Positions 12,945-56,725 of a stretch of 64,000 nucleotides of DNA are shown here, one piece after another. Under the pieces are notes generated by a model. The model searched no databases. It was not told the DNA's origin and was given only the letters and a program-made list of their open reading frames with translations. The translations under genes were made by a program, and so were the position numbers. The stretch spans positions 124,001-188,000 of the forward strand of contig JAGYIJ010000002.1 in assembly GCA_018402685.1 (NCBI GenBank), read 5' to 3'. Numbering within the stretch: position 1 is the stretch's first letter; every line of letters starts with the position of its first letter. The DNA is from Aquiluna sp. (GTDB lineage Bacteria > Actinomycetota > Actinomycetes > Actinomycetales > Microbacteriaceae).

Positions 12945-12993
12945 GGGCACAACTTTATCGTGAGGGGGCAAATCCACTAGACTTGCCTAGCTT

Positions 12994-29380: not shown

Positions 29381-30697
29381 CTAGGGCTTTCTAAGAATTG
29401 CAATAAACATTGCGTCGGTGGAGTGCAGGTGTGTCCAGAGTTGAACCGTTTTTCGATCGGGGTTGACCTCGATATCTGGAGCCAAACTTCCGAGTACTTC
29501 TTTGGCGTCCACCAACTCCAGTCCCGGGTTGGCGTCCAGTGCGATTCGAATCTGGGTATTCGTCTCGGGAATCAAGGGTGAGCAGGTCGAATAGAGCAGG
29601 TAGCCGCCGGACTTGAGGGAATCAATTCCAGCTTGCAATAACTCCTGCTGCAGATTGGTCAACTGCGGCAGTTGCGAGGGTTCTTTTCGCCATCTGGATT
29701 CCGGCTTTCTGCGCACCGAACCAAGCCCTGAGCATGGAGCGTCTAGCAAGACCGCGTCATAGCTGTTCGGCTTGGAGTTTTGACCAAGGTCCACGATCAC
29801 GTTGGTTTCTGATTCGCCAGTGAGTGCCCGCTCCACCATCTGAGCTCTTTGCGGAACGGGCTCCATGCAATCTAAGACTCCCCCGCTTGCGGCAATACCG
29901 GACTGCAAAATTGCTGACTTGCCTCCGGGTCCCGAGCACATGTCTAGCCACCGACCCGCGCGGTTACCAACTTCCAACAAAGCCAACGCCACCAACTGAG
30001 AACCTTGATCCTGAACTCTGACGCCGGGCTGGTCCAAGAGCGGCTCGGGGTTGCCATGAAGGAGGTAGCCAATTGGTGACGCTCCGCCTTTTTCGAGTCC
30101 GAGCTCGTCAAGATAGTTTTTGGCAGCTGGGTTTATTGCGGCCAGGTTCACAACCGGAGTCTCATTATTGGACTCCAGCAAGGCTTTTAGTTCGGTCTCT
30201 TTCCCATCGAGCTCAAGAGCTTGCTTCAGGGCGCGGATAACCCATATCGGGTGCGAGTATTCAATCGCCAATGCCTCCAGCTCAGGCTTGTCCTTCAGGG
30301 AATCCTGCAACAGCGCGTCAAAGCCCTTGCGATCGGCATTTCTGAGCACCGCGTTTGCCAAGCCCGCTGCCCGCTTTTCTATCTCTTTGACAAGTTCGAC
30401 GCTTTCGTGAATGGCTGCGTGAGATGGGACGCGCATGCGAAACAGCTGGTGCAAGCCAAGCTGAAGACAAAACCGCAGCTCATCTGAAAGCGTCTTACCT
30501 TGCGTGAACTGCTCGATAAAGCTGTCGTATTGATATTTCCAGCGAAGCGATCCGTAGCTGAGCTCCTGAATCAGCCCACGGTCCGCATCCGATAGTGACT
30601 GGTCTCCCAAGACCTTTGGCATCAGAAGGTTGATGTAGCTATCTGATTTTTGGACCCTAATCAAAAGCTCGAGCGCAATTTTTCTGGCGTTAGTCAA
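29381..30697 (-). CDS. rsmB: 16S rRNA m5C967 methyltransferase
   Basis: SAM-dependent methyltransferase of the RsmB/Sun family. The 438-residue protein has an N-terminal NusB-like RNA-binding domain (about 1-140) and a C-terminal methyltransferase domain with the SAM motif DMCSGPGGKSAIL near 248, DAPCSGLGSVRR near 317 and the catalytic cysteine in LLYSTCSP near 378. TTG start at 30697 with AAGGTGAG upstream, overlapping the fmt end by eight bases. Confidence 0.95.
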   Translation of the reverse strand: MTNARKIALELLIRVQKSDSYINLLMPKVLGDQSLSDADRGLIQELSYGSLRWKYQYDSFIEQFTQGKTLSDELRFCLQLGLHQLFRMRVPSHAAIHESVELVKEIEKRAAGLANAVLRNADRKGFDALLQDSLKDKPELEALAIEYSHPIWVIRALKQALELDGKETELKALLESNNETPVVNLAAINPAAKNYLDELGLEKGGASPIGYLLHGNPEPLLDQPGVRVQDQGSQLVALALLEVGNRAGRWLDMCSGPGGKSAILQSGIAASGGVLDCMEPVPQRAQMVERALTGESETNVIVDLGQNSKPNSYDAVLLDAPCSGLGSVRRKPESRWRKEPSQLPQLTNLQQELLQAGIDSLKSGGYLLYSTCSPLIPETNTQIRIALDANPGLELVDAKEVLGSLAPDIEVNPDRKTVQLWTHLHSTDAMFIAILRKP

Positions 30698-31599
30698 GGC
30701 TCACCTTGCCCTGTTGACCCCGGATAAATTCAAGCGCGGTCATCGGTTTCTTGCCGGCTGGCTGCAGCTCGATCAGCTCCAACCTCGTACCTCCGCCGCA
30801 CCCTACGAGCACTCGGTTCTCGTCTTGCCACATCAACCCCGGTTCACCAAGGGAATCTAGAGCCTCCCAGTCCACAGACCCCAGACTCTTTGCTCGCAAT
30901 AGTTTTAGAGGCTGACCTGCGAAGTTGGCCCAGGCGGTGGGTTCCGGGTTGAGAGCGTGAATGATTCTCTCAATCCGGTCCGCTGACTCATTGAAGTCAA
31001 TCTTGGCCTCGGCTCGCGAGATCTTCGGCGCTAAGGATGGCTCACCTTGCTGGTTGGTTGGTTCTGGCTTTGTCTTGAGGGCCTCTAGAAGAAGATTGGT
31101 CCCTTTGGTAGTAAACCGACTAAGCGCCTCGGACGCTATTTCCTGCGGGAGAAACTCCATTGGCACTGAGCTAATAATCGGTCCAGTGTCCAAGCCTTTT
31201 TCAAGTTCAAATATCGTTATTCCGATACCACTGTCGTGAATCATCGAATGCTGCAACGGGGTTGCCCCGCGCCATTCTGGCAGCAGGCTGTAGTGGAGGT
31301 TCCACCAGGGCATGATTTCAAGCGCACTCGGCGGCACAAGTGCCCCGTAGGCAACAACTACCGCTAGCTCGGCATCGGCACCAGCAATCTCTTCGAGGTG
31401 ATCTGTGACCCTGGATGTCTTCAGGGTCTTGATGCCCAGCTCGCTCAGCGCTTTGCGCCACAGCCGAGGGGGTGATGACTCGCTTGCGACCAACTGGCGC
31501 ATCTTCTCTTGTAATTGCGAGCACGATTTCGTGATGACGACTTAGCTCTTCGAGCGCCTGCGCCGCAATGGCGGGCGTTCCAGCAAAAATCAGTCGCAT
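30690..31599 (-). CDS. fmt: Methionyl-tRNA formyltransferase, frameshifted as sequenced
   Basis: Formylates initiator Met-tRNA. The reading frame is broken. The first part (from ATG 31599) reads MRLIFAGTPAIAAQALEEL and ends its family homology at TPSAVAQ. The rest continues one frame over as ALSELGIKTLKTSRV and carries the active-site NLHYSLLPEWRGATP and GLDTGPI segments. Removing one base from the T-run 31452-31454 (AAA on the coding strand) gives AVAQALSELGIK and 302 codons plus stop, the normal length. All motifs survive, so a sequencing error or a very recent mutation is likelier than an old pseudogene. Ten bases after priA. Confidence 0.9.
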
Positions 31600-40698: not shown

Positions 40699-41810
40699 TA
40701 GTTCTTCTCCTGAATCATGCTGACAAACTTGTCAAATAGGTAGTGCGAATCGTGCGGGCCGGCCGCGGCTTCGGGGTGGTACTGGACTGAGAAGGCTCTG
40801 ATGTCTTCACACTCGAGCCCTTCGACCACGCCATCGTTCAGGCCGCGGTGAGAAACCCGGACGTTGCCAAAGCCCTGAGGGCTTTGAGCTTCATCTTCCT
40901 CAAACTTGACGGCGAAGCCGTGATTGTGTGCAGTGACCTCGACCTGACCGGTGGCCTTTTGCATCACCGGTTGATTTATGCCGCGATGGCCAAAGTCAAG
41001 TTTGTAGGTGTCAAAACCAAGCGCCCTACCAAGAAGCTGATTTCCAAAGCAGATGCCAAAGAACGGCACGTCTTTTCTGAGAACCTCCCGAAGCATCTTT
41101 ACCTGATCCTCGCTTGCCTCCGGGTCACCCGGGCCATTTGAGAAAAACACTCCGTCTGGGCTAGCACTGAGAATCTCCTCAGCCGTTGCACTGGCTGGAA
41201 AGACCTCCATCTCAACACCGCGGGATGCCAGGTGCTCGAGAGTCGACTTTTTGATCCCCAAATCCAAGATTGCAACCTTGCCGATTCTCTCCCCCTCGGC
41301 CGCAATGATGTAGCTGTTCGGTGTTGTTACGACGTCGCTTAGTTTCAGTCCGGCCATCTTGGGCGCTGTTTGAACCTGTTCGAGCATTTGTTCCTGAGTG
41401 AGATCCAGGTTTGAAAAGATTCCTGCCCGCATTGCTCCGAGTGATCGGATTTTCAGGGTGAGAGCTCTGGTGTCCAAGTTTGAGATTCCAACAATCCCCT
41501 GTGACTCTAGGTCTGACTGAAGGGTTCGCTCAGATCTGAAGTTGGAGGCCATTCGAGAGGGTTCTTTCACCACGTAACCGGCAACCCAGATCTGGGAGGA
41601 CTCCTCGTCGCGCGCGTTCATTCCTACGATGCCAATGTGGGGGGCGGTCTGCAACACGATCTGCCCCGCATAGCTTGGGTCGGTGATGGTCTCTTGGTAG
41701 CCGGTCATGCCGGTTGCAAATACCAGCTCCCCGGTTGTCTTTCCCGTGGCTCCAAGAGGTTCACCCTCGAATACGGTTCCGTCTTCCAATACCAAATAGG
41801 CCTCAGCCAC
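40698..41810 (-). CDS. carA: Carbamoyl phosphate synthase, small subunit
   Basis: Glutaminase subunit feeding ammonia to CarB. The 370-residue protein has the N-terminal CPSase domain ([37 protein letters not shown]) and a class I glutamine amidotransferase domain with nucleophile Cys in [16 protein letters not shown] and the His-Glu pair in [16 protein letters not shown] start at 41810 with AGGGG upstream, overlapping the membrane-protein gene by eight bases. Confidence 0.97.
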
Positions 41811-42292
41811 GTTTTACCCCTGTCACTTTTTCGATTGCGTCTTCATACTCTTTGCGCTTGCTAGCGCTAACCACCCTGAGATTCGTCATTACCTCTAGAT
41901 CTCCCAAGCGCCAAACCAAGACCATCAGTCCGTCGCGCTCAACACCCTTGTCGATTGTTGCGCTAGCGCGAGTTAGCGCAATCAGGTCGTTTTTGGGAAT
42001 GTGCAAGCTTGGTTCGCCGACTCGCTCAATCGAGATGCCCGCCTCAGATAAAAAGATCTTGGCCTTGCCTCGGCCGCCGAGTCGGTGCGCCCAGACTCTA
42101 GAAAGTGGGCTGATCGCAAACACGGTGCTGGCATAAAAGGCGTCTCCGAGTTCAACCCCGCCGACACTCTGAGCTGGAGCGGGGATGGTCAACTGCTGCT
42201 CCTGCTTACGTCTTTGCACAGAGCGATAAACCCGCCAGGCAATCAAAAACACCAGCGCAACCAATGAGCGTGCCAATTACTTCGCGAATCAT
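41803..42292 (-). CDS. Small membrane protein between pyrC and carA, frameshifted as sequenced
   Basis: An N-terminal helix followed by a soluble domain of about 120 residues, resembling the membrane protein at the same place in mycobacteria (Rv1382, between pyrC and carA). The visible frame starts only at a TTG at 42276. An ATG at 42292 overlaps the pyrC stop as ATGA and reads [11 protein letters not shown], then slips. Dropping one base from 42259-42260 joins it to [14 protein letters not shown] and gives 162 residues. The joined helix is continuous, so I take 42292 as the true start. Function unknown. Confidence 0.8.
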
Positions 42293-43556
42293 TTCGCAAC
42301 CAACTTTCGGTCCTCAACGGTGAAGCGGCCGCGGTAAATGGTCATGACTACCTCGCCGGGCAGCTTCATGCCGGCGAAGGGATTGTTGTGGCTCTTGGAG
42401 TGCGTGCTCGGGCTGATAGTTCTCGCTGAAGCCGGGTCAATCAGCGTTAGGTTGGCAACTGCACCAACAGCAATTTGCCCATGATCACTCAGACCGGCTA
42501 TTTGCGCGGGCTTTTCGCTAAGTACCGATTGGAATCGCTCCCAGTTTGACTTGCCAGAATCAATAAGGACCTGCTGGAGAACGCTGGCGGCATTCTCAAG
42601 ACCCACCATTCCAAATGCTGCGCTGTCCCACTCGCACTCCTTTTTCTCGGCTGAGTGCGGGGCGTGGTCGGTGCCAACAACGTCGATGGTTCCATCGATT
42701 AGGGCCTCTTGCAGAGCTTTGGTGTCTTCGCTTTTGCGAAGCGGCGGATTGACCTTGTAGACCGGGTCGTAACTTCGAACCAGATCCTCGGTTAGCAACA
42801 GGTGGTGCGGAGTGACCTCTGCAGTTAGGTCAATGCCCTGCTTTTTGCCCAGCGCACCACATCCACCGCTCCTGCGGTGGTGAGGTGACAGACGTGCAGT
42901 CTCGAGCCCGTCTTTTGAGCAAGCAGAGCATCGCGCTCGATGATCTTCTCCTCGGCCTCGGCTGGCCAGCCTGTGAGTCCAAGTTCGGTGGCCAGTGCAC
43001 CCTCGTTCATTTGCGCACCTGGAGTCAAAGTGGGGTCCTGAGCGTGCTGGGCGATCACTCCCCCAAACTTCTTCACGGCAACTAGTGCCTGCTCCATTAG
43101 CTTTTCGTCAAAGACACAGACTCCATCGTCGCTAAAGACCTTCACATTTGCCTTCGAGGACGCCATCTCGGTAATGGCTGATAGCTCTTTGCCCAAAAGT
43201 CCTTTTGTCACCGCTCCGATTGGTTGAACGTCCACATACCCGGCAGCTAGCCCAAGTTCGTAGACCTCTTCAACCAGCTCGGCAGTGTCCGAGACCGGAG
43301 CGGTATTTGCCATCGACAACACTGCGGTGTAGCCGCCGGCGGCGGCTGATCGCGATCCGGTCAGCACCGTTTCGCTTGCCTCGAACCCGGGCTCTCGAAG
43401 GTGAGTGTGAACATCAACGAAGCCTGGAAGTACCACCAGCCCAGTGCAATCAATACCAGGTTCAGAGAGCTTCCCGATTTCGACTATCACTCCCTTGTCA
43501 ATCTTGATGTCGACAATCTCTGCTTTAGCGTTCTGAGCATTTTTGAGAATGATCAT
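42289..43556 (-). CDS. pyrC: Dihydroorotase, frameshifted as sequenced
   Basis: Ring closure of carbamoyl aspartate to dihydroorotate. The first part (to about 42840) holds the metal site PGFVDVHTHLREPG, IAQHAQDP and LHVCHLTTAGAVDVVRWAK, then stops. The second part continues as LLTEDLVRSYDPVYKVNPPL with the catalytic Asp in VGTDHAPHS. Adding one A to the coding-strand A5 run (T-run 42842-42846) gives KKQGIDLTAEVTPHHLLL and 422 residues. This is the only apparent deletion among the breaks. The ATG shares one base with the pyrB stop. Confidence 0.92.
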
Positions 43557-44489
43557 CAGGCATCCCCTCCGGCTAGAACCTGATACAAAACCGCCATTCG
43601 AACCGAGACCCCATTGGCGACCTGCTCCAAGATGGCAGCTCTTGGGTCATCTGCGGCCTCCGAGGAGATTTCTAGTCCCCGGTTCATCGGACCCGGATGC
43701 AAGATCAAGCAGTCTTTCTTTAGCGAGGCGAGCCTTTGGTCCGCCAAGGACCAGTTCGCCGCATACTCCCGCTCTGAACCAAGACGATTCTCAGTCATCC
43801 GCTCACGCTGGACTCTGAGCATCATCACAACATCCGGCTGGTGGGAAAGTGATTCTTCAAAACTCAGCGAGGTCTTCACTCCCAGCTTCTCAATGCCAAT
43901 TGGCATCAAGGTCTTCGGGCCCAGCAACCTCAACTTTGGCACCGAGCGTTTGCAGTAGGTGAATGTTTGAACGGGCGACTCTGGAGTGCTTGATGTCCCC
44001 GACAATCAAAACCTTTATGCCCTTTAGATCGGATCCAGGTGCGAGGCGCTGGCGAATTGTCATTGCATCCAAAAGGGCTTGGGTCGGGTGTTCGTGAGAG
44101 CCATCACCGGCGTTCACGATCGAGGCCGAAATCCAGCCCCGGTGGGCGAGGTTGTGTGCGGCACCAGATGCCGGATGGCGAATCACAATGGCATCGGCCC
44201 CCAGGGCCTCAAGGGTCTGCGCGGTGTCTTTGAGGCTCTCACCCTTTGATAGTGACGAGGTTGCCGCCGAGAAGTTGATGACGTCGGCGCTGAGTCTGGT
44301 GGCCGCGATTTCAAAGCTGATGCGAGTTCTGGTGGAGTTCTCCACAAAGAGGTTGACAATCGTCTTTCCTCTAAGAGCGGGCAACCGTTTCACCTCGCGC
44401 TGTGAAACAGCACCAAGCTCTTGGGCGTTGTCGAGCAGTCCAAGTGCCTGATCTTTGGTTAGGTCCGCTGTCGAAATCAAGTGCTTCAC
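43556..44489 (-). CDS. pyrB: Aspartate carbamoyltransferase, frameshifted as sequenced
   Basis: Joins carbamoyl phosphate and aspartate, the first committed step of pyrimidine synthesis. The first part has the carbamoyl phosphate site [20 protein letters not shown] and [18 protein letters not shown], and runs to AKVEVAGP. The second part goes on as [15 protein letters not shown] with [12 protein letters not shown] near the end. Removing one base from GGGCCC at 43917-43922 joins [12 protein letters not shown] and gives 310 residues, a normal length. The ATG overlaps pyrR by four bases. No regulatory subunit gene is seen, as usual outside enterics and archaea. Confidence 0.92.
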
Positions 44490-45016
44490 TGGTCAATCAC
44501 CACCAGGTCGTCAGTATCGATCTCTTTCAAAAACACCGAGACCCGCTCTTTTGTTGAGGTCGGTAGATTCTTTCCAACAAAATCCGGGCGGATTGGTAGC
44601 TCTCGGTGTCCACGGTCTGCCAGGACAGCGAGCTTCACCTGGCGGGGTCGTCCGATGTTGGTAATCGCATCGAGCGCTGCGCGAACCGTTCTGCCCGAAA
44701 ACAGCACATCATCGACCAACACGACCACTTTGCCCTCGAGAGATGCGGTTGGAATATCCGTGGGAGCCATTCTGCGCTCTTTGGACACAAGGTCATCGCG
44801 ATACATCGTGATGTCCAAAACCCCAGCGGGAGTTTGGTACTCGGGTTCAATCTGGGTAATGATTTTGGCAATGCGATTGGCCAAGTGGATTCCACGAGTG
44901 GGAATTCCGAGAATGATTAGGTCTTGAAAACCCTCGTTAGCTTCGAGGATTTCGTGAGCGATTCGCCTGAGGCATCGCTCGATGTCTTGTGCATCAAGCA
45001 CGGTTCGTTGGCTCAT
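44486..45016 (-). CDS. pyrR: PyrR pyrimidine operon regulator and uracil phosphoribosyltransferase
   Basis: RNA-binding regulator that senses UMP/UTP and has weak uracil phosphoribosyltransferase activity. The 176-residue protein has the PRPP-binding motif [19 protein letters not shown] near 95-113, [12 protein letters not shown] and DITMYRDDL. First gene of pyrR-B-C-(membrane)-carA-carB-pyrF. ATG at 45016 with AAGGAG six bases upstream; this site lies within a PyrR-binding loop, so it probably represses its own translation. Confidence 0.97.
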
Positions 45017-45023
45017 GGCCAGC

Positions 45024-45044
45024 TCCTTCTTCGCCTCGCTGGAC
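45024..45044 (-). promoter_or_regulatory. PyrR-binding loop over the pyrR ribosome-binding site
   Basis: On the minus strand this reads GTCCAGCGAGGCG then AAGAAGGA. It matches the PyrR-binding consensus of Bacillus and mycobacteria (AGUCCAGAGAGGCU, then an AGAAGGA-like segment). The AAGGAG ribosome-binding site of pyrR overlaps its 3' end. No terminator hairpin follows, so translational repression, as shown for Mycobacterium smegmatis pyrR, is the likely mode rather than attenuation. Confidence 0.75.
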
Positions 45045-45080
45045 GAATTTAAAGGACATTTGCGCTAAAGCATAACAGCT

Positions 45081-45500
45081 CTAAAGAGCTGCGCCTCCTT
45101 TTGCAAGGCGAGCCAGAACGCCGTTGATAAATTTTGGAGAATCGTCTGTTGAATACTCGCTTGCTAGGGCAACCGCTTCGGCAATGGCCACCTCGTTGGG
45201 AACCTCTTCGTTATGCAAGATCTCCCATGCGCCCAATCTCAGAATCGCCCTATCGACATTGGGCATGCGCTCAAGGCTCCAGCCATCCGAGAGCATCTTG
45301 AGTTCGTTGTCAATTTGGTCGGCGTTGGTGAAATAGCCCATAAGCAGCATCTCTGCGTAATCGAAGATTGCTTCTTGGTTCTGGCGATCGGCTACCTCGT
45401 CATTGGTCTCTTTGAGAAGCAGCAGTGCGTCATCCTGGCGAACACCAGCTGCGTAGAGTGCGTCCAGAGCTCTTTTGCGTGCTTTGGTGCGGGCGCTCAA
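45081..45500 (-). CDS. nusB: Transcription antitermination factor NusB
   Basis: Binds boxA RNA with S10 (NusE) in rRNA antitermination. The 139-residue all-helical protein begins MSARTKARKRALDALYAA and has the conserved DRAILRLGAWEILH and PNEVAIAEAVALASEYST with PKFINGVLARLA. TTG start directly after the efp stop, so it is coupled to efp. The 64-base gap after it carries the pyrR leader. Confidence 0.96.
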   Translation of the reverse strand: MSARTKARKRALDALYAAGVRQDDALLLLKETNDEVADRQNQEAIFDYAEMLLMGYFTNADQIDNELKMLSDGWSLERMPNVDRAILRLGAWEILHNEEVPNEVAIAEAVALASEYSTDDSPKFINGVLARLAKGGAAL

Positions 45501-46064
45501 CTATTCGCTCACTCGGCCTAGGTATTCACCGGTTCTGGTGTCTACCTTGACCTTGGTGTTGTTCTCGATAAACAGTGGCACCTGAATCTGGTGACCGGTC
45601 TCGACGGTTGCGGGCTTGGTGCCACCACTTGAGCGATCCCCCTGCAGCCCAGGCTCGGTGAAGGTGATCTCCAAAACCACTGATGCTGGTAGTTCAACAT
45701 ATAGCGGGTTCCCCTCGTGCAGGGCAACTGTGGCCAGTTGGTTCTCTAAAAGGAAGTTGCTGGTCTCACCCATCACTGTGGCATCCACCGTGATCTGCTC
45801 GTAGTTGGTGCTGTCCATAAATACGTAACCGGAGCCATCGTTGTAGAGATACTGCATGTCTCTGCGGTCCACGTTGGCGGTCTCTATCTTGATGCCAGCG
45901 TTGAAAGTCTTGTCGACAACCTTGCCGCTTGTAACATTGCGCAGCTTGGTGCGCACAAAAGCTGGACCCTTGCCTGGCTTGACGTGCTGAAACTCGATAA
46001 CACTCCAGAGTTGGTTTTCAATCGAGAGCACCATGCCGTTTTTAAGATCGTTTGAGGTTGCCAT
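45501..46064 (-). CDS. efp: Elongation factor P
   Basis: Relieves ribosome stalling at polyproline. The 187-residue protein has the three beta-barrel domains of EF-P: the N-terminal loop in [16 protein letters not shown] carries the lysine modified in other bacteria, followed by [13 protein letters not shown] and the C-terminal [20 protein letters not shown]. Strong AAGGAG five bases before the ATG. Order efp-nusB is common in actinobacteria and firmicutes. Confidence 0.97.
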
Positions 46065-46091
46065 TTTTCTCCTTGTTAGGCCTCTGAGATT

Positions 46092-46526
46092 CTAGCCGCG
46101 AGCCAGTTGCTCGATTGCTAGCAGGTAGCTATCGAGGCCAAACCCTGCGATGACGCCGGTGGCAACCGCTGAGATAACACTGGTCTGTCGGAACTCTTCG
46201 CGGGCGTGCGGATTGGAAATGTGTACCTCAATCAACTTGTTGCCAGCGGAGGTGTGAGCCGCGCAAGCATCCCTGAGCGCATAGGAGTAGTGGGTGAAGG
46301 CTGCTGGGTTCAAAACCACCGCAAGCTTGTTGGTGAATGCCTCGTGGATCCAACCAATTAGCTCATCTTCAGAGTTGGTTTGCCTGAAGTCAACTTCAAT
46401 ACCGAGCTCGTTAGCTCTACTCGTTATTGCCTTGTCGAACGCTTGTAGGTCCATGTCTCCATAGACTTCGGGCTCTCTTGCACCGAGCAAGTTCAGGTTG
46501 GGGCCATTCAAAACCAGGATCTTCAT
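46092..46526 (-). CDS. aroQ: 3-Dehydroquinate dehydratase, type II
   Basis: Third step of the shikimate pathway. The 144-residue protein has LNGPNLNLLGAREPEVYG with the catalytic Arg and Tyr, VLNPAAFTHYSYALRDA, the catalytic His in EVHISNPHAREEFR, and ISAVATGVIAGFG. Type II forms a dodecamer. Ten bases after aroB. Intact. Confidence 0.97.
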   Translation of the reverse strand: MKILVLNGPNLNLLGAREPEVYGDMDLQAFDKAITSRANELGIEVDFRQTNSEDELIGWIHEAFTNKLAVVLNPAAFTHYSYALRDACAAHTSAGNKLIEVHISNPHAREEFRQTSVISAVATGVIAGFGLDSYLLAIEQLARG

Positions 46527-46535
46527 GGCTAAACG

Positions 46536-47574
46536 CTATTCCACAATCGACTGAAAAGCCGTAAATAGCAGTTCTTTGGTCGGGGCATTCAGAATCGCTG
46601 GCTTTCCGATTCGCTCCAGAACAACAAACCGTAGTGAACCCGAGCGGCTCTTCTTGTCCCGCTGCATGGTCGCATAGAGCGGTTCCCAACGGTCTGCTCG
46701 ATAGCTAAGTGGAAGACCTAGGCCGCCCAGCACACTGCGATGTCTCTCGACATCAGCTTCACTGAGCCTTCCGGAGAGCAGAGCCAGCTCAGCGGCATAG
46801 ACCATGCCGATCGAAATCGCTGCTCCGTGACGCCAGTTGTAGCGCTCGGCATGCTCGATTGCATGGCCGAGGGTGTGGCCGTAATTCAGAAACTCCCGCT
46901 CACCAGTTTCTTTAAAATCAGCAAGGGTGATTCTTTCCTTGATGGCCACTGATCGTTTGGATGATTTCACGGAAGGTGTCGGAGCTGACATCGGTGGCTG
47001 CATCCCCTGACTCAATCGCTTCAAGAATCCAGGGATCTTCAATAAAGCCATACTTTGCGACCTCGGCCATTCCGGCCAGTAACTCGTTGCGAGGAAGGCT
47101 GTGCAGGGTGTCGAGGTCGATAAATACCTGGTGCGGCATGTGGAAAACCCCGACAAGATTCTTGCCCTCTTGGGTGTTTATACCCGTTTTGCCGCCAACC
47201 GCTGCATCCACCATGCCTAAAAGGGTGGTTGGTATCAGGATTGACCTAACTCCCCTGAGCCAAGTTGCTGCCACAAAACCGGATAGGTCGGTGGTGGAGC
47301 CACCACCGAGGCCGATAACGGCATCATTTCTCTGGAAATCAGCCTGCCCCATGATGTCCCAGCAGAATGCTGCCACCTCAACTCGCTTCGCTGCCTCAGC
47401 CGCCGGCACCTCGGCCAAGAGCGCTTCGAAACCCTGAGTAACGAGGGTTTCCCTCAGCACCTCGGCGGTGGCGGCTAGTGGTTGCGGATAAACAATCAGA
47501 GCCTTTTTGACTCCGTCTAGAGATCCGGCAACGTCCTCGAGCAGGCCGCGACCAATAATCGCGTTAGTTTTCAA
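46536..47574 (-). CDS. aroB: 3-Dehydroquinate synthase, frameshifted as sequenced
   Basis: Second step of the shikimate pathway, NAD- and metal-dependent. The first part has GLGGGSTTDLSGFVAATW, TTLLGMVDAAVGGKTGIN and EVAKYGFIEDP, and runs to FREIIQ. The rest continues one frame over as RSVAIKERITLADFKETG with the metal ligands in FLNYGHTLGHAIEH. Dropping one base from the T-run 46956-46958 gives EIIQRSVAIKER and 345 residues, a normal length. TTG start with GAGGAG upstream, overlapping aroK by 11 bases. Confidence 0.92.
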
Positions 47575-48059
47575 CGGCTAGCTCCTCGAGTTCGGTCATA
47601 AGAGTTCTGATTGGTCTAGAACCTGTGAACAGTGTGGCATCTGCGGCAAGTCGGTATGCCTCGACTCGCTCTGCATAAATTCTCTCCCAAGCCTCCGGGT
47701 CATTTTTTAGAAGCGGCCTTTTATCCAAGTTGATTTTTCCCAGCACAGATTGGGCATCAGTGTCTAAGAAGATAACGCGGTGACCCCTTGAGGAGTTCGC
47801 GGTTGGCCTCCTTGAGTAGCACACCACCGCCGGTGGCAACCACGTCAAACTCGCTAAGAGCTCGCTCTAGGGCTTTGGTTTCGAGGGTTCGAAAGTGTTC
47901 CTCACCATGCTTTTCAAAGATTCTGGTTATTGAGCCATGACGAGCACCAATCAAGCGATCGGTGTCGGCAAAGGAGACACCAAGTCGTTTTGCGAGTTTT
48001 TTGCCCAGCGTGGTTTTGCCGGCTCCCATGGGGCCAACCAGCACAATTGCCCGGGACAT
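47564..48059 (-). CDS. aroK: Shikimate kinase, frameshifted as sequenced
   Basis: Phosphorylates shikimate. The first part has the P-loop LVGPMGAGKTTLGKKLA, the DTD motif in FADTDRLI, and VVATGGGVLLKEANRELLK. The second part continues as HRVIFLDTDAQSVLGKI with LDKRPLL. Removing one base from the C-run 47784-47787 gives RELLKGHRVIFL and 164 residues, a normal length. The ATG shares one base with the aroC stop (TAATG). Confidence 0.92.
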
Positions 48060-49257
48060 TACGGCCTAACGATGCGGGAGCGAAGCGTCTCGGGGATATT
48101 GGCAAGGTAGCTATCAAGGTTGCGCTTTGTCTCACCAAGAGAATCGCCACCGAATTTTTCCAAAACAGCGTCTGCCAGCACCAGCGCGACCATTGCTTCG
48201 ACCACGATTCCGGCCGCCGGAACCGCGCAAACATCGCTGCGCTGGTGGTGGGCGGTCGAAGACTCTCCAGTGGCGGTATCAATGGTTTGCAGTGCTTTTG
48301 GCACGGTGCTGATTGGCTTCATGCCTGCTCTAACGCGAATGATCTCGCCGTTGGACATTCCGCCTTCGATGCCTCCGGCACGGTCTGTGGCGCGGCTTGC
48401 CTCGCCATCGGCGGTGACTATTTCGTCGTGGGCAACTGAGCCACGACGACGCGTGGTTTCAAGACCGTCCCCAATCTCGACAGACTTCATTGCCTGAATC
48501 CCCATAACTGCACCTGCGAGCTTGGAATCAAGCCTGCGGTCAGAGTGGACGTAACTACCAAGCCCTGGAGGGCAGCCATAGACCAGATGTCTCAACTACT
48601 CCGCCAATGGTGTCGCCACTCGAGTGGCACTCGTCAATCTCAGCGACCATGGCATCGGATGCAGCCTTTGTCAAAAGCGCGAACCGGATCCTCGTCGAGT
48701 TTCGAGACGTCCTTTGGCCTTGGTAGTTCAATCGAGTCGCTAATTGCTGTTCCGATTGCAACGGTGTGAGTCACAAGCTCAATGCCGAGCTCGCGTAGGA
48801 AATTCTGTGCCACTCTGCCTAGGGCGACCCTGGTTGCGGTCTCCCTCGCGCTAGCGCGTTCCAGAACTGGACGAGCCTCATCAAAGTCGTATTTCTGCAT
48901 GCCGGTGAAGTCGGCGTGTCCAGGCCTTGGCCTGGTAAGGGCTGCGCCTCTGGCTCCGGTGAGCTCTTCGGGGTCAACCGGTGCCGCACTCATGACCTTT
49001 TCCCACTTCGGCCACTCGGTGTTGGCGATGCGAATGGCAATTGGGCCGCCTTGGCTCAGACCATGGCGGATTCCGGTCGAGAGGGTTACCTCGTCTTTTT
49101 CAAACTTCATTCTTGCGCCGCGACCATAGCCCAAACGCCTGCGAGCAAGTGCGTCTTGGATTTCTTCGGCGAGCACGGGAACGCCAGCAGGAAGCCCCTC
49201 CATTACTCCAATGAGTTCGGGACCGTGTGATTCTCCAGCAGTTATCCAGCGCAGCAT
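48059..49257 (-). CDS. aroC: Chorismate synthase, two frameshifts as sequenced
   Basis: Makes chorismate, using reduced FMN. Three frame segments together form one normal protein. Segment one has [36 protein letters not shown] and [12 protein letters not shown], to VRAFDK. Segment two is [20 protein letters not shown] then GGVVE. Segment three is [20 protein letters not shown] onward, with [17 protein letters not shown]. One extra base sits in 48667-48669 and one between about 48575 and 48590; without them the gene has 398 residues. Every family motif remains. Confidence 0.92.
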
Positions 49258-49261
49258 CAGA

Positions 49262-50014
49262 CTATTTTGCCACTAATAAAAGCTCAAAGAGTTCTTCTAT
49301 CAACTCTGGCTCATTTCTAAGCACGGTTTCCTCGTCAGCGAAGTTGAAAATTCGCTGTTGGTAGATCGCTTGATGAATAAGCATTTCAAGACCAGAGATG
49401 TATCTCTCGGCTGGAATCTCGGGGTTTGTGTAGGCAACATCCAAAACGCTCTGCAGCGGCTCACCAGTTGGAATTAGCTCTGGGAGAACCCCCTTTGGCA
49501 AGGTGCTGATCACGAGCTCCTTGCTCAAAGCATCAGCTAGCGAAACAACAGTTGCATCAAACTCTTTTGCTAGCTCAGCGGCCAGCTCCTGGTTTCTGGC
49601 GTAGATGACTTTTCTTGCGCCATCGAATGCGGCCAGCGCGCTTCGTGCCGTTGCACCAGAACCTAAAACTGCCACCTCTTGGGGTTTATGGCTGACGGCT
49701 TTTTGAATGCCAAAAACATCGGTATTAAAACCCTTGTAACCATCCTTGGTTCTGAGCAGAGTATTCGCGCTTCTCGTTTTTGCAGCCAGGGGCGACAGAG
49801 AAGTTGCCAGTTCAAATGCCTGATCCTTTAGCGGCATAGTCAGGCTAAAGCCTGCGTAGTCAGGCTTATCGGCTAGAAACTGGGCGAGGTTGTCCTGAAC
49901 CTCAAAGGACTCGTAGCTAGCGGATGAACTAAGTCGCGAGAAAACGAGATTGTGGATTTTTGGGGATAGCGAGTGCTGAATTGGAGAGCCCAACACCGCG
50001 TATTTATCAGTCAT
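49262..50014 (-). CDS. aroE: Shikimate dehydrogenase
   Basis: Reduces 3-dehydroshikimate to shikimate with NADPH. The 250-residue protein begins with [18 protein letters not shown], has the catalytic Lys in [26 protein letters not shown] with the substrate-binding Asp, and the cofactor fold [16 protein letters not shown]. It is slightly short but complete, and it has no frame break although its neighbours do. Overlaps the mltG stop by eight bases. Confidence 0.95.
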
Positions 50015-51082
50015 AATCCGGGTTATCTCGAAGCCACTGGCGATAAAGCTCCGCAGCTCTTTCGTGCTCGGCGAGGGTTTCAGAGAAGACGGTCTCGCCT
50101 GTGATTAGGTTGATCGAAACGAAATACAGCCAGTTTCCCTCTGCTGGCCGAAGGGTCGCTTCAATGGCCAACGATCCTGGAGATGCTATGGGCCCTGGTG
50201 GGAGCCCTGGGTTGTAGTAGGTGTTGAAGGGGTTCTCCTCATCGGCCATTCCTTCTTGGAATGAGTCGATAGAACCTTCGTAGTAGTACTTCACAGTTGG
50301 GTCAGACTGCAGCGCGATGTTGCGATCCAAACGATTGGCAAACACCCTGGAGATCTTGAACAGGTCCGATTCAATTAGCCCCTCGAGCTGCACTATTGAG
50401 GCCAGCGTGAGAACCGACATGGATTCTTTGAGGGTTAGGTCGTAGTCGTCGAGCTCTGCCGCCATGCGATCGAGCATGGTGTTGATGACCGTATCGGCAG
50501 TTACACCCGGGTTAAAGGTGTAGGTGGCGGGAAACAAAAAGCCCTCAATGCTCACTGCTGCATCCGGGAGACGCTCCATCGCGTTCTCGATAGCCGTTTC
50601 CAAATCAGCCCGCGTAAGGCCCAGGTCGTTCTCGAGCCTGGGGATGATCTCCGCAACTGTGAAGCCCTCTGGGATGGTGGTCTGCACCACCACCTTGTTG
50701 GTATTAGACAGCAGTAACTGCAACGCCCTGGCTGCAGGTATTTGAGACGGGTACTCATAGACGCCAGGGAAGATTGTTGGGTCAGCAGCGATCATGTCTC
50801 GATAGATTGCCTCGAAGCTCTTTATGACATCGGCCTCGACCAGCTTGTTCGCAACATCACGCCCGGTGTCACCGGGTTCGATGGTGATCTGGACCATCGG
50901 GCCACCAGTGCCGTCGTAGTCCTCAACCTGAAACCTGGAGATGAAATCATTAATGGAGTCTCGAGCAACCATGTAGCCACCGGCGACCAATCCCAGCCAA
51001 GATTCCAATCGAGATTATTGCCGCGAGAGCGCCCTTCACTCGGTTTCTTCGGAGCGGTCGATTGCTCAAACTCATCCAGCAT
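50007..51082 (-). CDS. mltG: Endolytic murein transglycosylase MltG, two frameshifts as sequenced
   Basis: Membrane enzyme that cuts nascent peptidoglycan. The visible frame lacks a proper N-terminus, but three frames assemble one: MLDEFEQSTAPK from the ATG at 51082, NRVKGALAAIISIGILAGIG as the membrane helix, then LVAGGYMVARDSINDF and the YceG domain. Extra bases are inferred at 51044-51046 and near 50986-50994; corrected, it has 357 residues. The catalytic region reads ASIVQLEG, against ASIVExE in E. coli, so the second glutamate is kept. The ATG overlaps ruvX by 11 bases. Confidence 0.88.
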
Positions 51083-51512
51083 CGATTTCCTCCAAGCTCT
51101 TTCCTGCGAAATTCTCGCGCTCGCTACTCAGGGCAAACTCCAAAATCATCGCTGCCGCACTGGCGTCAATTATGCCCTTTTGTTGCCTTGAGTTTTTGCC
51201 TGCCTGTCTAAGTGCACTGCTCGCGGCCTTGGAGGTTAGCCGCTCGTCAATTAGCCGAATCGGAACCTCGACAGTTGCTGATAGTTCGCGGGCGAAATCT
51301 ATAGCCATTTTGGTACTGGCTGTGTGATCCCCCGACAGCGAGAGCGGCAGGCCAACATAAATACATTCCGGCTTCTCCAAAGCAATCAGTTCAGAAAGTG
51401 CTGACAGTGCTCTTTGATCGTTGGGGATTACCGAGTGCGGCAGGCTTAGTGAGTCTTGCGAAATGGCCACGCCAATCCGTGCTTGACCGATATCGAGTGC
51501 GAGCTTGCGCAC
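51072..51512 (-). CDS. ruvX: RuvX/YqgF family RNase H-like protein
   Basis: Putative pre-16S rRNA 5'-end nuclease or Holliday junction resolvase homologue. The 146-residue protein has the RNase H-like start LALDIGQARIGVAIS, the ECIYVGLPLSLSGDHTAST segment, RLIDERLTSKAA and a final DASAAAMILEFAL, with the usual acidic residues. GTG start sharing one base with the alaS stop. The alaS-ruvX-mltG order is typical. Confidence 0.94.
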   Translation of the reverse strand: MRKLALDIGQARIGVAISQDSLSLPHSVIPNDQRALSALSELIALEKPECIYVGLPLSLSGDHTASTKMAIDFARELSATVEVPIRLIDERLTSKAASSALRQAGKNSRQQKGIIDASAAAMILEFALSSERENFAGKSLEEIDAG

Positions 51513-54142
51513 TAGAGGCTGCTAACTGCCTTGTCGATAGCGCTCTGCAGTAGCTTGGCGTTTGGCCCGCCACCCTGAGCGAAGTCAGGTCGGCCACCAC
51601 CGCCACCGCCAAGCACCTCGGAGGCTAGCTTGACCAATCCCCCGGCGTTCGCCTTTGATTGAGCGGCTTTTCCAACCGCGACCATGACAACCGCTCTGCC
51701 TTCGGTTTCAACGCCCAAGATTGCAACCGAGTTCTCACCAAGCTGGTTTGAAAGCTTTGTGGTCAGATCCCTAAGCCCATCACTACTAACATTTTCAATC
51801 CTGGTTGCCACCACGTCTAGGCCAGCAACAGATTGCTTTGCTGCGACGAGCTCAGGCAGCTGTGCGAGTGCAAGCTGGCTTTGCAGGGCTGTAAGTTCGC
51901 GCTGGGTGCTTCGCAGCTCCTCTAGGGAATCAGCGATGCGGTTTTCAAGCTCATTGGCTGGAGATTTCAAGCTAGCTGAGAGTCTGCGAATTAGATCGCG
52001 CTCTTGATGAAGCGCAGTTAGTGCCTCAAAGCCAACTACCGCTTCGATCCTGCGAGATCCGGCTCCAACCGAGCTTTCCGAGGTCAGGCTCACCAGTCCA
52101 ATTTGAGAGGATCTCGAGACGTGGGTGCCACCACAAAGCTCTCTTGACCAGGGGCCTCCAACCTGAACGACCCTGACGTCCTCGTCGTAGGTTTCACCAA
52201 AGAGTGCAATTGCGCCCCAGGCCTTGGCATCTGGAAGACTCATAAATGCCGCGCTGACGGCAAGATCGGCTCGAATCGCGAGGTTTGAGACCTCTTCGAT
52301 TTCACTTTTGGACTCATCGCTTAGAGCCTGGGCCCAGTTGAAGTCGAGTCTCATGTAGCCGGGCTTGTTGAACGAACCCGACTGCAAGGCCTCTGGACCT
52401 AACACCTGCCTTAGAGCTGCGTGCACAACGTGAGTCGCAGAGTGCGCTTGGCAAGCGCCCAGACGCCACTCAGAATCAACCAGAGTCTGGGCCTGCTGGC
52501 CAGTTTTGACCTCGCCTTTGGTCACTCTCACCTTGTGTGAGAAAAGTCCCTTAACAGGTTTTTGAACATCCAATACTTCTAGCTCGAAGCCATCCCCCAC
52601 GATCACGCCGGAGTCGGCTGCTTGCCCGCCAGATTCTGCGTATAGCGATGTCTTGTCAATGAAGAGCTCGCCTAATTGGCCCTCGACGAGTGAATCTGCT
52701 GTTTGTCCGTCTCGAATTAGCCCAAGAATCTCGCCTTGCGCATCAAGTGACTCATAGCCCAGAAACTGGGTTTGACCCTTGGCGCGGAATTCGCTGTAGA
52801 CCTGAAGGCCCGCTGAGCCAACCTTTTTGCTCTTCGCATCATCCTTCGCCCTTGAGCGTTGCTCCTGCATCAGGGCGTCAAAACCAACTCTGTCAACGCT
52901 CTTGCCGGCTTCTTCCGCAATCTCAATGGTGAGATCGATTGGAAAGCCGAAGGTGTCATGCAGTTGGAATGCGATCGCTCCCGAGAGAACCGGGCCGGAA
53001 TCCTTGAGCGCTGCATCTAGCACCTCGGTGCCGCTGGCGAGAGTGCGCAAGAAGCCAGCTTCTTCGGCCACTGCTGCTCTGTGAACTCGCTCGAAGCTCT
53101 CTTCGAGTTCGGGGTAGGCCTCGACCATGGCGTTTTTGGATTCAGTGAACAACTCTCCGAGGCTTGGCTTTTCGACGCCAAGCAGTCTCAGTGCCCTGAC
53201 AACTCTTCTGAGCAGTCTCCTGAGCACATAGCCGCGTCCCTCATTCGATACCGTCACGCCATCACTCATAAGCATTAGGGCTGATCTCACGTGATCGGCG
53301 ATGACTCGCATGCGAACGTCGTCGGTCTCGTTTTTGCCATAGACCTTGCCGCTGAGTTTGCTAGCTAAATCAATAAGCGGACGAACCTGATCAATCTCAT
53401 AGATGTTGTCAACGCCCTGCAGCAAAAATGCCACGCGCTCTAGACCCATGCCGGTGTCAATGTTCTTGCTTGGCAGCTCCCCCAGAATCTCAAAGTGATC
53501 CTTGGTGCCACCATCGGCTCTCTCGTACTGCATGAACACGAGGTTCCAGATCTCGATGTAGCGATCCTCATCGGCCTCTGGCCCACCCTCGCTGCCATAC
53601 TCCGGGCCGCGGTCAAAGTAGATCTCGCTGCAGGGTCCCGCAGGCCCGCGTTGCCCGGTGGACCAGTAGTTATCGGCCATGCCGCGCTTTTGAATGCGCT
53701 CTCTGGGTATTGAGGTCTCTGCTAGCCAATAGTCGATTGACTCATCATCATCTTCATAAACAGTTACCCAGAGTTTCTCTGGGTCAAAACCTAGACCGCC
53801 ATCGGCCTCTGATTTAGTAAGCAGTTCCCAGGCATAGCCGATGGCTTCTTTTTTGAAGTAGTCACCAAAAGAGAAGTTTCCATTCATCTGGAAAAAGGTG
53901 CCGTGCCTGGTGGTCTTGCCGACCTCGTCAATATCTAGGGTTCGAACGCACTTTTGAACGCTGGTTGCGCGCTTGTAGGGGGCGGGTTCGACACCTGTCA
54001 TAAAGGGAATGAATGGCACCATGCCGGCTACCACAAACATCAAAGTTGGGTCTTGGCTTATCAGTGGTGCGCTGGGAACCACCGTGTGGTTTTTGGACTC
54101 AAAGAATTCGAGCCAGCGCCGCTTAATCTCAGCGGTCTTCAT
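51512..54142 (-). CDS. alaS: Alanyl-tRNA synthetase
   Basis: Charges tRNA-Ala. The 876-residue protein has the class II catalytic domain (FFESKNHTVVPSAPLI; FQMNGNFSFGDYFKKEAI; GMGLERVAFLLQG), the tRNA-recognition part, the editing domain with zinc-type HSATHVVHAALRQ and CGGTHVSRSSQIG, and a C-terminal coiled coil plus a glycine-rich GGGGGGRPDFAQGGG end. Full length with ATG start. Three bases after the small YtxH-like gene. Confidence 0.97.
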   Translation of the reverse strand: MKTAEIKRRWLEFFESKNHTVVPSAPLISQDPTLMFVVAGMVPFIPFMTGVEPAPYKRATSVQKCVRTLDIDEVGKTTRHGTFFQMNGNFSFGDYFKKEAIGYAWELLTKSEADGGLGFDPEKLWVTVYEDDDESIDYWLAETSIPRERIQKRGMADNYWSTGQRGPAGPCSEIYFDRGPEYGSEGGPEADEDRYIEIWNLVFMQYERADGGTKDHFEILGELPSKNIDTGMGLERVAFLLQGVDNIYEIDQVRPLIDLASKLSGKVYGKNETDDVRMRVIADHVRSALMLMSDGVTVSNEGRGYVLRRLLRRVVRALRLLGVEKPSLGELFTESKNAMVEAYPELEESFERVHRAAVAEEAGFLRTLASGTEVLDAALKDSGPVLSGAIAFQLHDTFGFPIDLTIEIAEEAGKSVDRVGFDALMQEQRSRAKDDAKSKKVGSAGLQVYSEFRAKGQTQFLGYESLDAQGEILGLIRDGQTADSLVEGQLGELFIDKTSLYAESGGQAADSGVIVGDGFELEVLDVQKPVKGLFSHKVRVTKGEVKTGQQAQTLVDSEWRLGACQAHSATHVVHAALRQVLGPEALQSGSFNKPGYMRLDFNWAQALSDESKSEIEEVSNLAIRADLAVSAAFMSLPDAKAWGAIALFGETYDEDVRVVQVGGPWSRELCGGTHVSRSSQIGLVSLTSESSVGAGSRRIEAVVGFEALTALHQERDLIRRLSASLKSPANELENRIADSLEELRSTQRELTALQSQLALAQLPELVAAKQSVAGLDVVATRIENVSSDGLRDLTTKLSNQLGENSVAILGVETEGRAVVMVAVGKAAQSKANAGGLVKLASEVLGGGGGGRPDFAQGGGPNAKLLQSAIDKAVSSL

Positions 54143-54145
54143 GGA

Positions 54146-54349
54146 CTACTTCTTAGCTGCTGGGCGCTTCTTAGGTGCCTTGATCTCGGCTTCGCGCTCT
54201 TGGTAGCCCTCGGCGATCGAAGCGCCGAAATCCTTAGCGGCGGAAACCGCCTCGTCTACCGCTTCCCGAGCCTGAGGATTGTCTCGGTACTGGATAAGTC
54301 CCATTGCACCGATTCCGATGCCAACCAAAAACCAACCTAGTTTCGACAT
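54146..54349 (-). CDS. Small YtxH-like membrane protein
   Basis: A 67-residue protein: a glycine-rich helix (LGWFLVGIGIGAMGLIQY) followed by a polar helix and a lysine/alanine-rich tail (KAPKKRPAAKK). It resembles YtxH-like or DUF948-companion proteins often found beside alaS in actinobacteria; the function is unknown. Between the DUF948 gene and alaS with gaps of five and three bases, so probably co-translated. Confidence 0.8.
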   Translation of the reverse strand: MSKLGWFLVGIGIGAMGLIQYRDNPQAREAVDEAVSAAKDFGASIAEGYQEREAEIKAPKKRPAAKK

Positions 54350-54354
54350 TTTTA

Positions 54355-54702
54355 CTACCTCCGCTTACCCAGGGCCTTGAATGTTCCCTGCAGCACACCA
54401 ACCAGTTTAGTTAGTGGCGCTCCCACCGAAGCTGTGAAGATGGCCACCAGAGAATTGATGTTCTCGGTGACCTGCTCCACGTCCTCAGTGATTTGATCAA
54501 TCCGCTTTAGCTGCTTGTTTGCCTCGGCCAAAGTCTGTTTGGTCTCAGCAAGAATTGGCTCGAACTCTTTGTTGAAGGTCTTGACGGTGTTCGAGGTCTC
54601 GTCAATCAGACGACCAAGCTTGACCAGGGGAACTCCAATGAATAGAACCAGCAGTGCTACTGCCGATGCTAAAACGAGCCCTGCGATCTCGCCACCAGTC
54701 AT
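54355..54702 (-). CDS. DUF948 membrane protein
   Basis: A 115-residue protein with one N-terminal helix (near 4-26) and a coiled-coil stretch (ETSNTVKTFNKEFEPILAET, ANKQLKRIDQITEDVEQVTE). This is the DUF948 layout, also annotated in some genomes as general stress protein-like. Function unknown. Five bases after rpsD and paired with the YtxH-like gene before alaS. Confidence 0.85.
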   Translation of the reverse strand: MTGGEIAGLVLASAVALLVLFIGVPLVKLGRLIDETSNTVKTFNKEFEPILAETKQTLAEANKQLKRIDQITEDVEQVTENINSLVAIFTASVGAPLTKLVGVLQGTFKALGKRR

Positions 54703-54707
54703 AGTGA

Positions 54708-55337
54708 TTACCTAGCTGCGTAGAACTCAACCACGAGCTGAACTTCAGCGGTAACAGGAACTTCAACACGCTTTGGACGACGAACCAGGGTCGCCTGCAG
54801 CTTGTCAAGATCCACGCTTAGGTACTCAGGGGTCTTGTTCAATACGTCGGAGTGACCTCCGCCTGCTGCAACCTGGAACGGCTCAGTCTTTTCGCTCTTC
54901 TCAGCAACGTGAATCATCTGTCCTGGCTTTAGGCGGAAGGACGGACGGTCAACGCGCTCGCCGTCAACGAGGATGTGGCGGTGCACAACCATCTGACGGG
55001 CCTGAGCAATCGTGCGAGCAAAGCCCGAACGAAGAACTAGTGCGTCAAGGCGCATCTCCAACAGCTCAACCAGGTTCTCACCGGTTAGACCATCTGCGCG
55101 CTTTGCCTCCTGGAACACCTTGCGAAGCTGAGCCTCGCGGATTCCGTACTGCGCCCTTAGACGCTGCTTCTCGCGCAGACGGACTGCGTAGTCGGAGTCG
55201 CTCTTGCGCTTGGTGCGGCCGTGCTGACCCGGTCCATAGGGTCTTTTTTCCATATACTTAGCAGCCTTTGGAGTTAGCGCGATGCCTAGGGCACGCGACA
55301 GCCTCGTCTTGCTGCGGGATCTAGTTGTCTTCGACAA
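54708..55337 (-). CDS. rpsD: 30S ribosomal protein S4
   Basis: Primary 16S rRNA-binding protein that nucleates assembly of the 30S body. I start at the TTG at 55337 (MSKTTRSRSK, 209 residues), with AAAGG at good spacing; the open frame extends to a TTG at 55352 that would add MKGTF. The N-terminal actinobacterial form lacks the usual zinc cysteines. The S4 RNA-binding domain is at about 95-160 (RLDALVLRSGFARTIAQARQ; HILVDGERVDRPSF). Here rpsD stands outside the ribosomal protein operons, between rarA and DUF948/alaS. Confidence 0.96.
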   Translation of the reverse strand: MSKTTRSRSKTRLSRALGIALTPKAAKYMEKRPYGPGQHGRTKRKSDSDYAVRLREKQRLRAQYGIREAQLRKVFQEAKRADGLTGENLVELLEMRLDALVLRSGFARTIAQARQMVVHRHILVDGERVDRPSFRLKPGQMIHVAEKSEKTEPFQVAAGGGHSDVLNKTPEYLSVDLDKLQATLVRRPKRVEVPVTAEVQLVVEFYAAR

Positions 55338-55372
55338 AAAGGTACCTTTCAAACTTTGAGTTGGATTTTCTT

Positions 55373-55408
55373 AGGTTGTAGATTCCAGCCGCTGAATCTA
55401 AACAACCT
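55373..55408 (-). promoter_or_regulatory. Hairpin in the rpsD leader
   Basis: On the minus strand AGGTTGT plus AGATTC pair with GAATCT plus ACAACCT: 13 base pairs with a two-T bulge and an eight-base loop. It would stand at the very 5' end of the message from the proposed promoter, about 36 bases before the TTG start. There is no T-run, so not a terminator. S4 represses its own translation in other bacteria; whether this structure takes part is a guess. Confidence 0.45.
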
Positions 55409-55413
55409 GACGA

Positions 55414-55442
55414 ATACTAGCAGTTTGCTAGCTGGAAGTCAC
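55414..55442 (-). promoter_or_regulatory. Probable rpsD promoter
   Basis: On the minus strand GTGACT (-35, four of six to TTGACA; 55437-55442) and TAGTAT (-10, four of six; 55414-55419) are 17 bases apart. The -35 box overlaps the rarA stop codon. Start of transcription would be near 55407, about 70 bases before the rpsD start. Confidence 0.5.
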
Positions 55443-56673
55443 TACCCCTCGAGTATTTCTCGGATCAGGCGCAATCGCTCCTGGAGCGTTTTTTCAAACC
55501 CGTGATCCGAGGGTTGGTAGTAGCGAGAATCTAGCTCCGCATAGCGCTGTTTCAGAATCCCCTTGGGGTCATCATGCGGGTACTTATAGCCAACAGCCCC
55601 GGTTGAGCGAAGCGGAGCCGGAACCGGCTTCACGGTTTTGTTCTGAACATCTTCTAAAGCTCTGTTGATCGCCTCGTAGGCACGATTTGATTTTGGGGCC
55701 AGTGCAAGATAAATCGTCACCTCGGCTAGTGGGATCCTGCCCTCCGGCATCCCGATTCTTTCCACCACGCCGGCTGCTGCCTCCGCAATCACCATTGCCT
55801 GGGGATCCGCCAAGCCCAATGTCTTCTGAGGCAAGAATCATCAACCTTCTAGCAATAAACCTGGGGTCCTCTCCCCCGGCAATCATTCTGGCCAGGTAGT
55901 GAATGGCCGCATCGGCATCTGAACCACGAACCGATTTGATAAAGGCGCTGATGGTGTCGTAGTGAACATCACCCTTGGCGTCATAGGCGATTACGTTCTC
56001 TGAGGCCGTCTTCGCAACCTCAAGATCAATCTGACGCACTTGCAAGAGAAGCCGCCTCCAGCAGGGTCAGCGCTCTGCGGGCATCACCGGACGAGATCTC
56101 GGATATGTAGTCAATCGCCTCCTCCGTGGCATTGGTGGATGCCAGAAGTGCATCGGTGGCAAGTGCACGCTGCAGGATCTGATTCACATCCATCACGCTC
56201 AGTGGCTCAAGGGCAATAACTAATGACCTTGAGATCAACGGTTTGATCACACTAAAGGACGGGTTCTCAGTTGTGGCGGCAACCAGAATCAAAACCCCAG
56301 ACTCCACTGCGCCCAACAGCGAATCCTGTTGCGCTTTAGAGAAGCGATGAATCTCGTCCAAGAACAAAACGGTGGTCTTATCGAACACATCTCTGCGACT
56401 CTGAGCTGCGGAAATTACCTCCCGAACCTGAGCGACACTGGCACTAACAGCGGATAATTCCTCGAAGTGGGCATCTTGTCGCTCGCCGATGAGTCTTGCC
56501 AAAGTGGTCTTGCCGCTACCGGGAGGCCCCCAGAGCAAAACTGAGGAGAAGCCGCCTTTTTCGCTCTGTACCAGCCTTCTTAGCGGACTGCCATCCTTGA
56601 GCGCCCTTTGCTGACCCAACACCTCGTTCAGAGATTTGGGTCGCATTCTGGAAGCTAATGGTTCTTGGGCCAC
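55442..56673 (-). CDS. rarA: Replication-associated recombination protein A (RarA/MgsA AAA+ ATPase), two frameshifts as sequenced
   Basis: AAA+ ATPase related to clamp loaders, acting at stalled forks. Segment one has [15 protein letters not shown], Walker [17 protein letters not shown] and Walker [13 protein letters not shown], to LLEAASLA. Segment two continues [12 protein letters not shown] and [13 protein letters not shown], and segment three [18 protein letters not shown] to the end, with [12 protein letters not shown]. Extra bases are inferred at 56040-56041 and 55810-55811; without them there are 409 residues, a normal length. GTG start at 56673, with a -10-like box about seven bases upstream, so the message may be leaderless. 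Confidence 0.9.
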
Positions 56674-56701: not shown

Positions 56702-56725
56702 ACGAGTTGCAAAAGACGGTGAGAA

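Follow-up and report, generated by a model that had tools for sequence, protein, structure and literature searches.

Indel errors that fragment genes are reportedly a trait of unpolished or under-polished long-read assemblies, as Warr and Watson are said to have pointed out in 2019. Programmed ribosomal frameshifting, of the prfB or dnaX type, changes the reading frame within essential genes. As regards sequencing errors, the accessible sections of one report describe PacBio subreads that are rich in insertion errors, polishing that took out far more insertion than deletion errors, shortened gene calls and a residue of 22.78 indels per 100 kb in a polished mock viral community (PMC6487183). 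Those of another link deletions with long runs of a base, find many insertions unrelated to any given run, and describe a MinION assembly where the errors were mostly false deletions (PMC12007338).

The stretch of DNA analysed here (the window) comprises 64 000 nucleotides of contig C2 (C2:124001-188000) of a 1.48 Mb genome in three contigs, G000. The source is a small freshwater-type bacterium, an Aquiluna-like member of the Microbacteriaceae. Among the 80 named loci listed, the top match of its AlaS protein belongs to an uncultured Aquiluna, at 70% identity, and a DNA search with alaS gave a match in 19 of the 21 other genomes of the genus. Completeness of G000 is 93.25 and contamination 4.01, with 99 and 0 for the related genomes G001, G002 and G006. 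GC content is even across the window (0.526-0.567 in 2-kb steps). Contig C1 of the same genome starts inside a 23S rRNA gene (C1:1-2997), so that the assembly breaks at an rRNA operon. A search of the nanopore and long-read literature on Aquiluna found no paper naming this assembly; the accessible sections of one report deal with nanopore work and with Aquiluna MAGs, and show no link to this genome (PMC12584769).

To detect frame breaks, the DNA of G000 was aligned with proteins from G006 and G002, two congeneric genomes that each consist of a single contig; the aligner permits single-base frame steps. A call is termed interior when 40 or more residues separate it from both ends of the relative's protein, and strict when, in addition, both relatives agree. 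The region examined contiguously spans 204 kb (C2:64001-268000), with about 182 kb of aligned gene. Counted from the listings, the comparison of G000 with G006 proteins produced 44 events in 184 genes (29 of them interior), and that with G002 proteins 37 events in 184 genes (28 interior). In the control, run between G002 and G006, the detector proved fairly clean: the two comparisons yielded 8 events (189 genes) and 7 events (191 genes), of which 2 and 0 were interior. Family names come from an NCBIfam search on the intact G006 copies, and for three breaks close to an N-terminus, one in a membrane protein and two in mltG, the three frames were also read against the N-termini of relatives.

All eleven frame breaks announced in the original prediction were recovered, between 42262 and 56037, in the same eight genes and with the same tally of ten insertions and one deletion. 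These genes all lie on the minus strand. A small membrane-type protein in the pyrC-carA interval (41803..42292; no NCBIfam match at E 1e-10) has one extra base near its N-terminus, at about 42262 (interval 42261-42272; both relatives). The gene for dihydroorotase, pyrC (42289..43556), carries the missing base at about 42841, in an A-run as had been foreseen (interval 42837-42846; both relatives). One extra base splits pyrB, for aspartate carbamoyltransferase (43556..44489; break at about 43908-43936, within it 43910-43919), aroB, for 3-dehydroquinate synthase (46536..47574; about 46956-46960), and aroK, for shikimate kinase (47564..48059; about 47783, interval 47782-47790). Two extra bases are found in aroC, for chorismate synthase (48059..49257; near 48584 and 48666, within about 48584-48588 and 48665-48670), two in the N-terminal and membrane segment of mltG, for endolytic transglycosylase (50007..51082; near 51003 and 51049, intervals 50996-51010 and 51048-51053, from the G002 alignment and the three-frame reading), and two in the gene of a RarA-like AAA ATPase (55442..56673; near 55814 and 56028-56037, intervals 55810-55821 and 56027-56050). 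Curated NCBIfam cut-offs were passed for pyrC, pyrB, aroB, aroC and mltG. Shikimate kinase models match aroK below their cut-offs, and so do the best models for the RarA-like protein, where a RarA model matches the C-terminal part. Eight of the eleven breaks are strict; the three near an N-terminus, 42262 (both relatives) and the mltG pair (G002 only), are placed less firmly. The window holds one other accepted break, the one already suspected in fmt, for methionyl-tRNA formyltransferase (30690..31599, minus strand; fmt model match below cut-off): one extra base at about 31440 (about 31437-31444; both relatives).

A comparison with the assemblies of close relatives, proposed along with the prediction, bears it out: the same genes are intact in G006 and G002 and broken in G000, where they align over their length to the intact copies once single-base frame steps are allowed. 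Single-ORF coverage was compared over 11 chosen loci, with L112 as reference. For pyrC, pyrB, aroB, aroK, aroC and rarA, the share of the reference protein covered by the best single ORF is 0.49-0.63 in G000; where the comparison loci have these genes, it is 0.87-1.00 (pyrC was not found in one locus). The membrane protein is a single ORF in seven of the 11 loci and was not found in the other four. Its coverage in G000 is 0.94 and that of mltG is 0.89, near the values of the comparison loci; both are hardly reduced because the breaks cut the N-terminus only. A further locus comparison, covering pyrB, aroB, aroK, aroC and rarA, involved nine relatives, four of them listed. Within the patch alaS (51512..54142, minus strand; 876 aa) is whole, a single ORF with 0.99 of the relative's protein, which tells us that the breaks are scattered and not present in every gene. 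Nine other genes of this stretch are single ORFs; we take them to be pyrR, nusB, efp, aroQ, aroE, ruvX, alaS, DUF948 and rpsD. A genome search found no second copy of the 42-56 kb patch in the G000 assembly.

This patch is the densest of the 204 kb examined contiguously. The accepted set counts 28 breaks: the strict calls plus four others, of which three are the N-terminal ones of the patch and the fourth, outside it, is close to a C-terminus. Eleven of the 28 fall in the 13.8-kb patch (scan P 0.00026, for windows of 13.8 kb), a count that favours the patch because the mltG breaks, called from G002 only, were admitted while one-relative calls elsewhere were omitted. The strict set, unbiased in this respect, places 8 of 24 in the patch (scan P 0.015). 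Per kb of aligned gene, the density of accepted breaks is 0.81 in the patch against 0.10 outside, where 17 occur in 168.6 kb (C2:64-268 kb), and that of strict breaks 0.59 against 0.09.

Several calls were discarded. The call at 213 results from an ORF of G002 that fuses UvrC and RapZ, and corresponds to a gene boundary in G000. A single 952-aa ORF spans the two in G002 (L148:2988-5846), whereas G006 has RapZ as an ORF of its own; either the fusion is real or the G002 sequence has an error in a frame or a stop. Another call, near 11950, lies upstream of the start of the PolA family in the relative's ORF. The segment 11904-12088, upstream of polA, displays similarity to the relatives' ORFs in another frame, and may be an over-extended ORF or a piece of another gene. 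Calls at ORF starts were rejected at 45017 (G006 only), at 12954 and 12991 (G006 only, compensating each other) and at 56725, the last one although it came from both relatives. C2:211887 and C2:211891 correspond to opposite-strand ORFs at one spot, and C2:214467 is close to a start. Among the uncounted one-relative calls are C2:83736, 85959, 251980, 252146 and 252953, together with short-ORF calls near C2:199 kb; C2:251980 and C2:252146, well within their gene, may be genuine breaks.

The original prediction had taken the patch for a low-quality stretch of the assembly. This view is supported but has to be widened: breaks appear elsewhere, on C2 and also on C1, and the patch is not a lone flaw in an otherwise clean genome. 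On C2, outside the patch, accepted breaks affect qcrA, lnt and zwf (two each), aconitase and others. In the flanks of the window, C2:64001-124000 and C2:188001-268000, the broken genes include qcrA, lnt, zwf, rapZ and aconitase, at about 0.1 break per kb. Four more 20-kb stretches, aligned with G006 only, together provide 67.2 kb of aligned gene and 11 interior breaks, distributed as 1, 6, 0 and 4, so that one stretch has none. Five extra bases are found in rpoC and one in the adjoining gene for EF-G (C1:314980-319157, equivalent to L127:14980-19157), and a search of G000 for rpoC found a single locus, in pieces. C1:312-319 kb is a second error patch. Breaks occur irrespective of gene function, in indispensable single-copy genes too (rpoC and EF-G; on C2 qcrA, lnt, zwf and aconitase). 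To our knowledge, no free-living bacterium can dispense with RNA polymerase, and neither rpoC nor EF-G can be lost. Since rpoC is indispensable, its breaks must be errors or somehow be read through, and the same has to be suspected for the 42-56 kb patch. The 23S rRNA gene has no single-base indel of its own in about 2.9 kb, but the background rate predicts about 0.3 and the gene is too short to tell.

The spectrum of the 28 accepted breaks is uneven, with 22 insertions and 6 deletions. All six deletions sit at runs of three to five bases (A or T in five cases); the mean longest run at these sites is 4.33 where 2.31 is expected, and none of 3000 resamples reached that value. Runs are not favoured by the insertions (mean longest run 2.18, expected 2.45). 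For the patch itself the idea that extra bases fall mostly in runs has to be given up (2.4, expected 2.48). Single-base indels that split otherwise normal genes are what long-read assembly errors look like. As far as the sections cited above go, the excess of insertions over deletions resembles the errors removed by polishing in one report (PMC6487183), and deletions in runs with many insertions outside them resemble the other (PMC12007338). With 28 breaks over the 182 kb of gene sequence aligned, G000 has about 15 per 100 kb as a lower bound, a frequency similar in magnitude to the 22.78 left in the mock viral community. Two features differ. Density is uneven, six to eight times higher in the patch than in the rest of the region, unlike in long-read error cases, and the insertion bias of G000 departs from the mostly deletion errors of PMC12007338, at least in the sections cited, which counts against an artefact.

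The breaks are present in the deposited sequence and they are clustered, so that one might think of real mutations, in a strain or subpopulation that has lost the corresponding pathways and retains the genes as young pseudogenes; it is general knowledge that small genomes commonly shed biosynthesis genes. Yet rpoC and EF-G, which cannot be shed, are broken likewise, and wherever a comparison locus contains one of the affected genes, that gene is a single ORF. Moreover, pseudogenes would show raised amino-acid change, and the patch does not: change found in G000 only, relative to the divergence between G006 and G002, amounts to 0.342 in the patch and 0.356 outside (raw shares 0.128 and 0.120), with no relaxed selection to be seen. 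Close to a break, up to 15 bases away, such change is slightly more frequent: it affects 0.163 of the columns in which both relatives agree, compared with 0.118 at a distance, and its ratios to divergence are 0.365 and 0.315. This rise probably reflects the uncertain placement of the breaks. We consider real loss of these genes very unlikely. A consensus mixing reads of co-occurring strains or species, merged in the patch with indels at the joins, would accord with the contamination estimate and with the general knowledge that strain mixtures may lower consensus quality. Divergence from the relatives is, however, much alike inside and outside the patch, GC content is flat, and the breaks are isolated single bases, not blocks. 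Such a mixture is improbable, if somewhat less so than gene loss.

That the indels be real but decoded through, by programmed frameshifting or polymerase slippage, has in its favour that essential genes are affected and that the downstream frames show normal conservation; slippage is even conceivable at the six deletions in runs. As in prfB and dnaX, the frame changes within essential genes. Unlike those cases, many unrelated genes are hit, the relatives compared keep them in a single frame, no common slip site appears and the breaks show no accumulation of stops. The 22 extra bases have no preference for runs, nor do they share a motif: around 24 insertions, 3-, 4- and 5-mers are not significantly enriched (P 0.78, 0.64 and 0.29). 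A stop within two codons in the old frame occurs at 4 of 31 breaks, 12.5% being expected under an insertion-only null. Three doubtful events were still on the list of 31 used to test for motifs, for stops and for change near the breaks; after they had been dropped, the counts and the run statistics were redone. We give decoding of this kind hardly any credence. Still less can be granted to a frame correction that would need no motif, acting at transcription or translation and making real indels tolerable in essential genes, RNA polymerase included: it is implausible in itself, and the spectrum of the indels resembles that of errors.

We are therefore highly confident that the breaks of the patch are consensus errors that have persisted in an assembly of the long-read type, made from an Aquiluna-like bacterium. 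Those of rpoC and EF-G, outside the window, are the strongest evidence for this artefact. Consensus errors also fit better because decay would raise amino-acid change and programmed frameshifting would need a site. The sequencing platform was probably of the long-read type. Low read depth over the patch, or failed polishing, may have let the errors through: at about 14 kb, the patch matches the span of one long read or a few, and too few reads might have set the consensus there.

The importance of the finding is limited to the data quality of this assembly, where gene calls, claims of pathway loss and pseudogene counts would be wrong. The approach used here, in which a genome is aligned with two complete relatives under frame steps and these relatives with each other as a control, could reveal such patches in other genomes that are the only ones of their species. 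As regards the organism, pyrimidine and shikimate synthesis would appear broken in the deposited sequence, while the genes are most likely intact: the bacterium itself would possess whole pyrimidine, shikimate, mltG and rarA genes.
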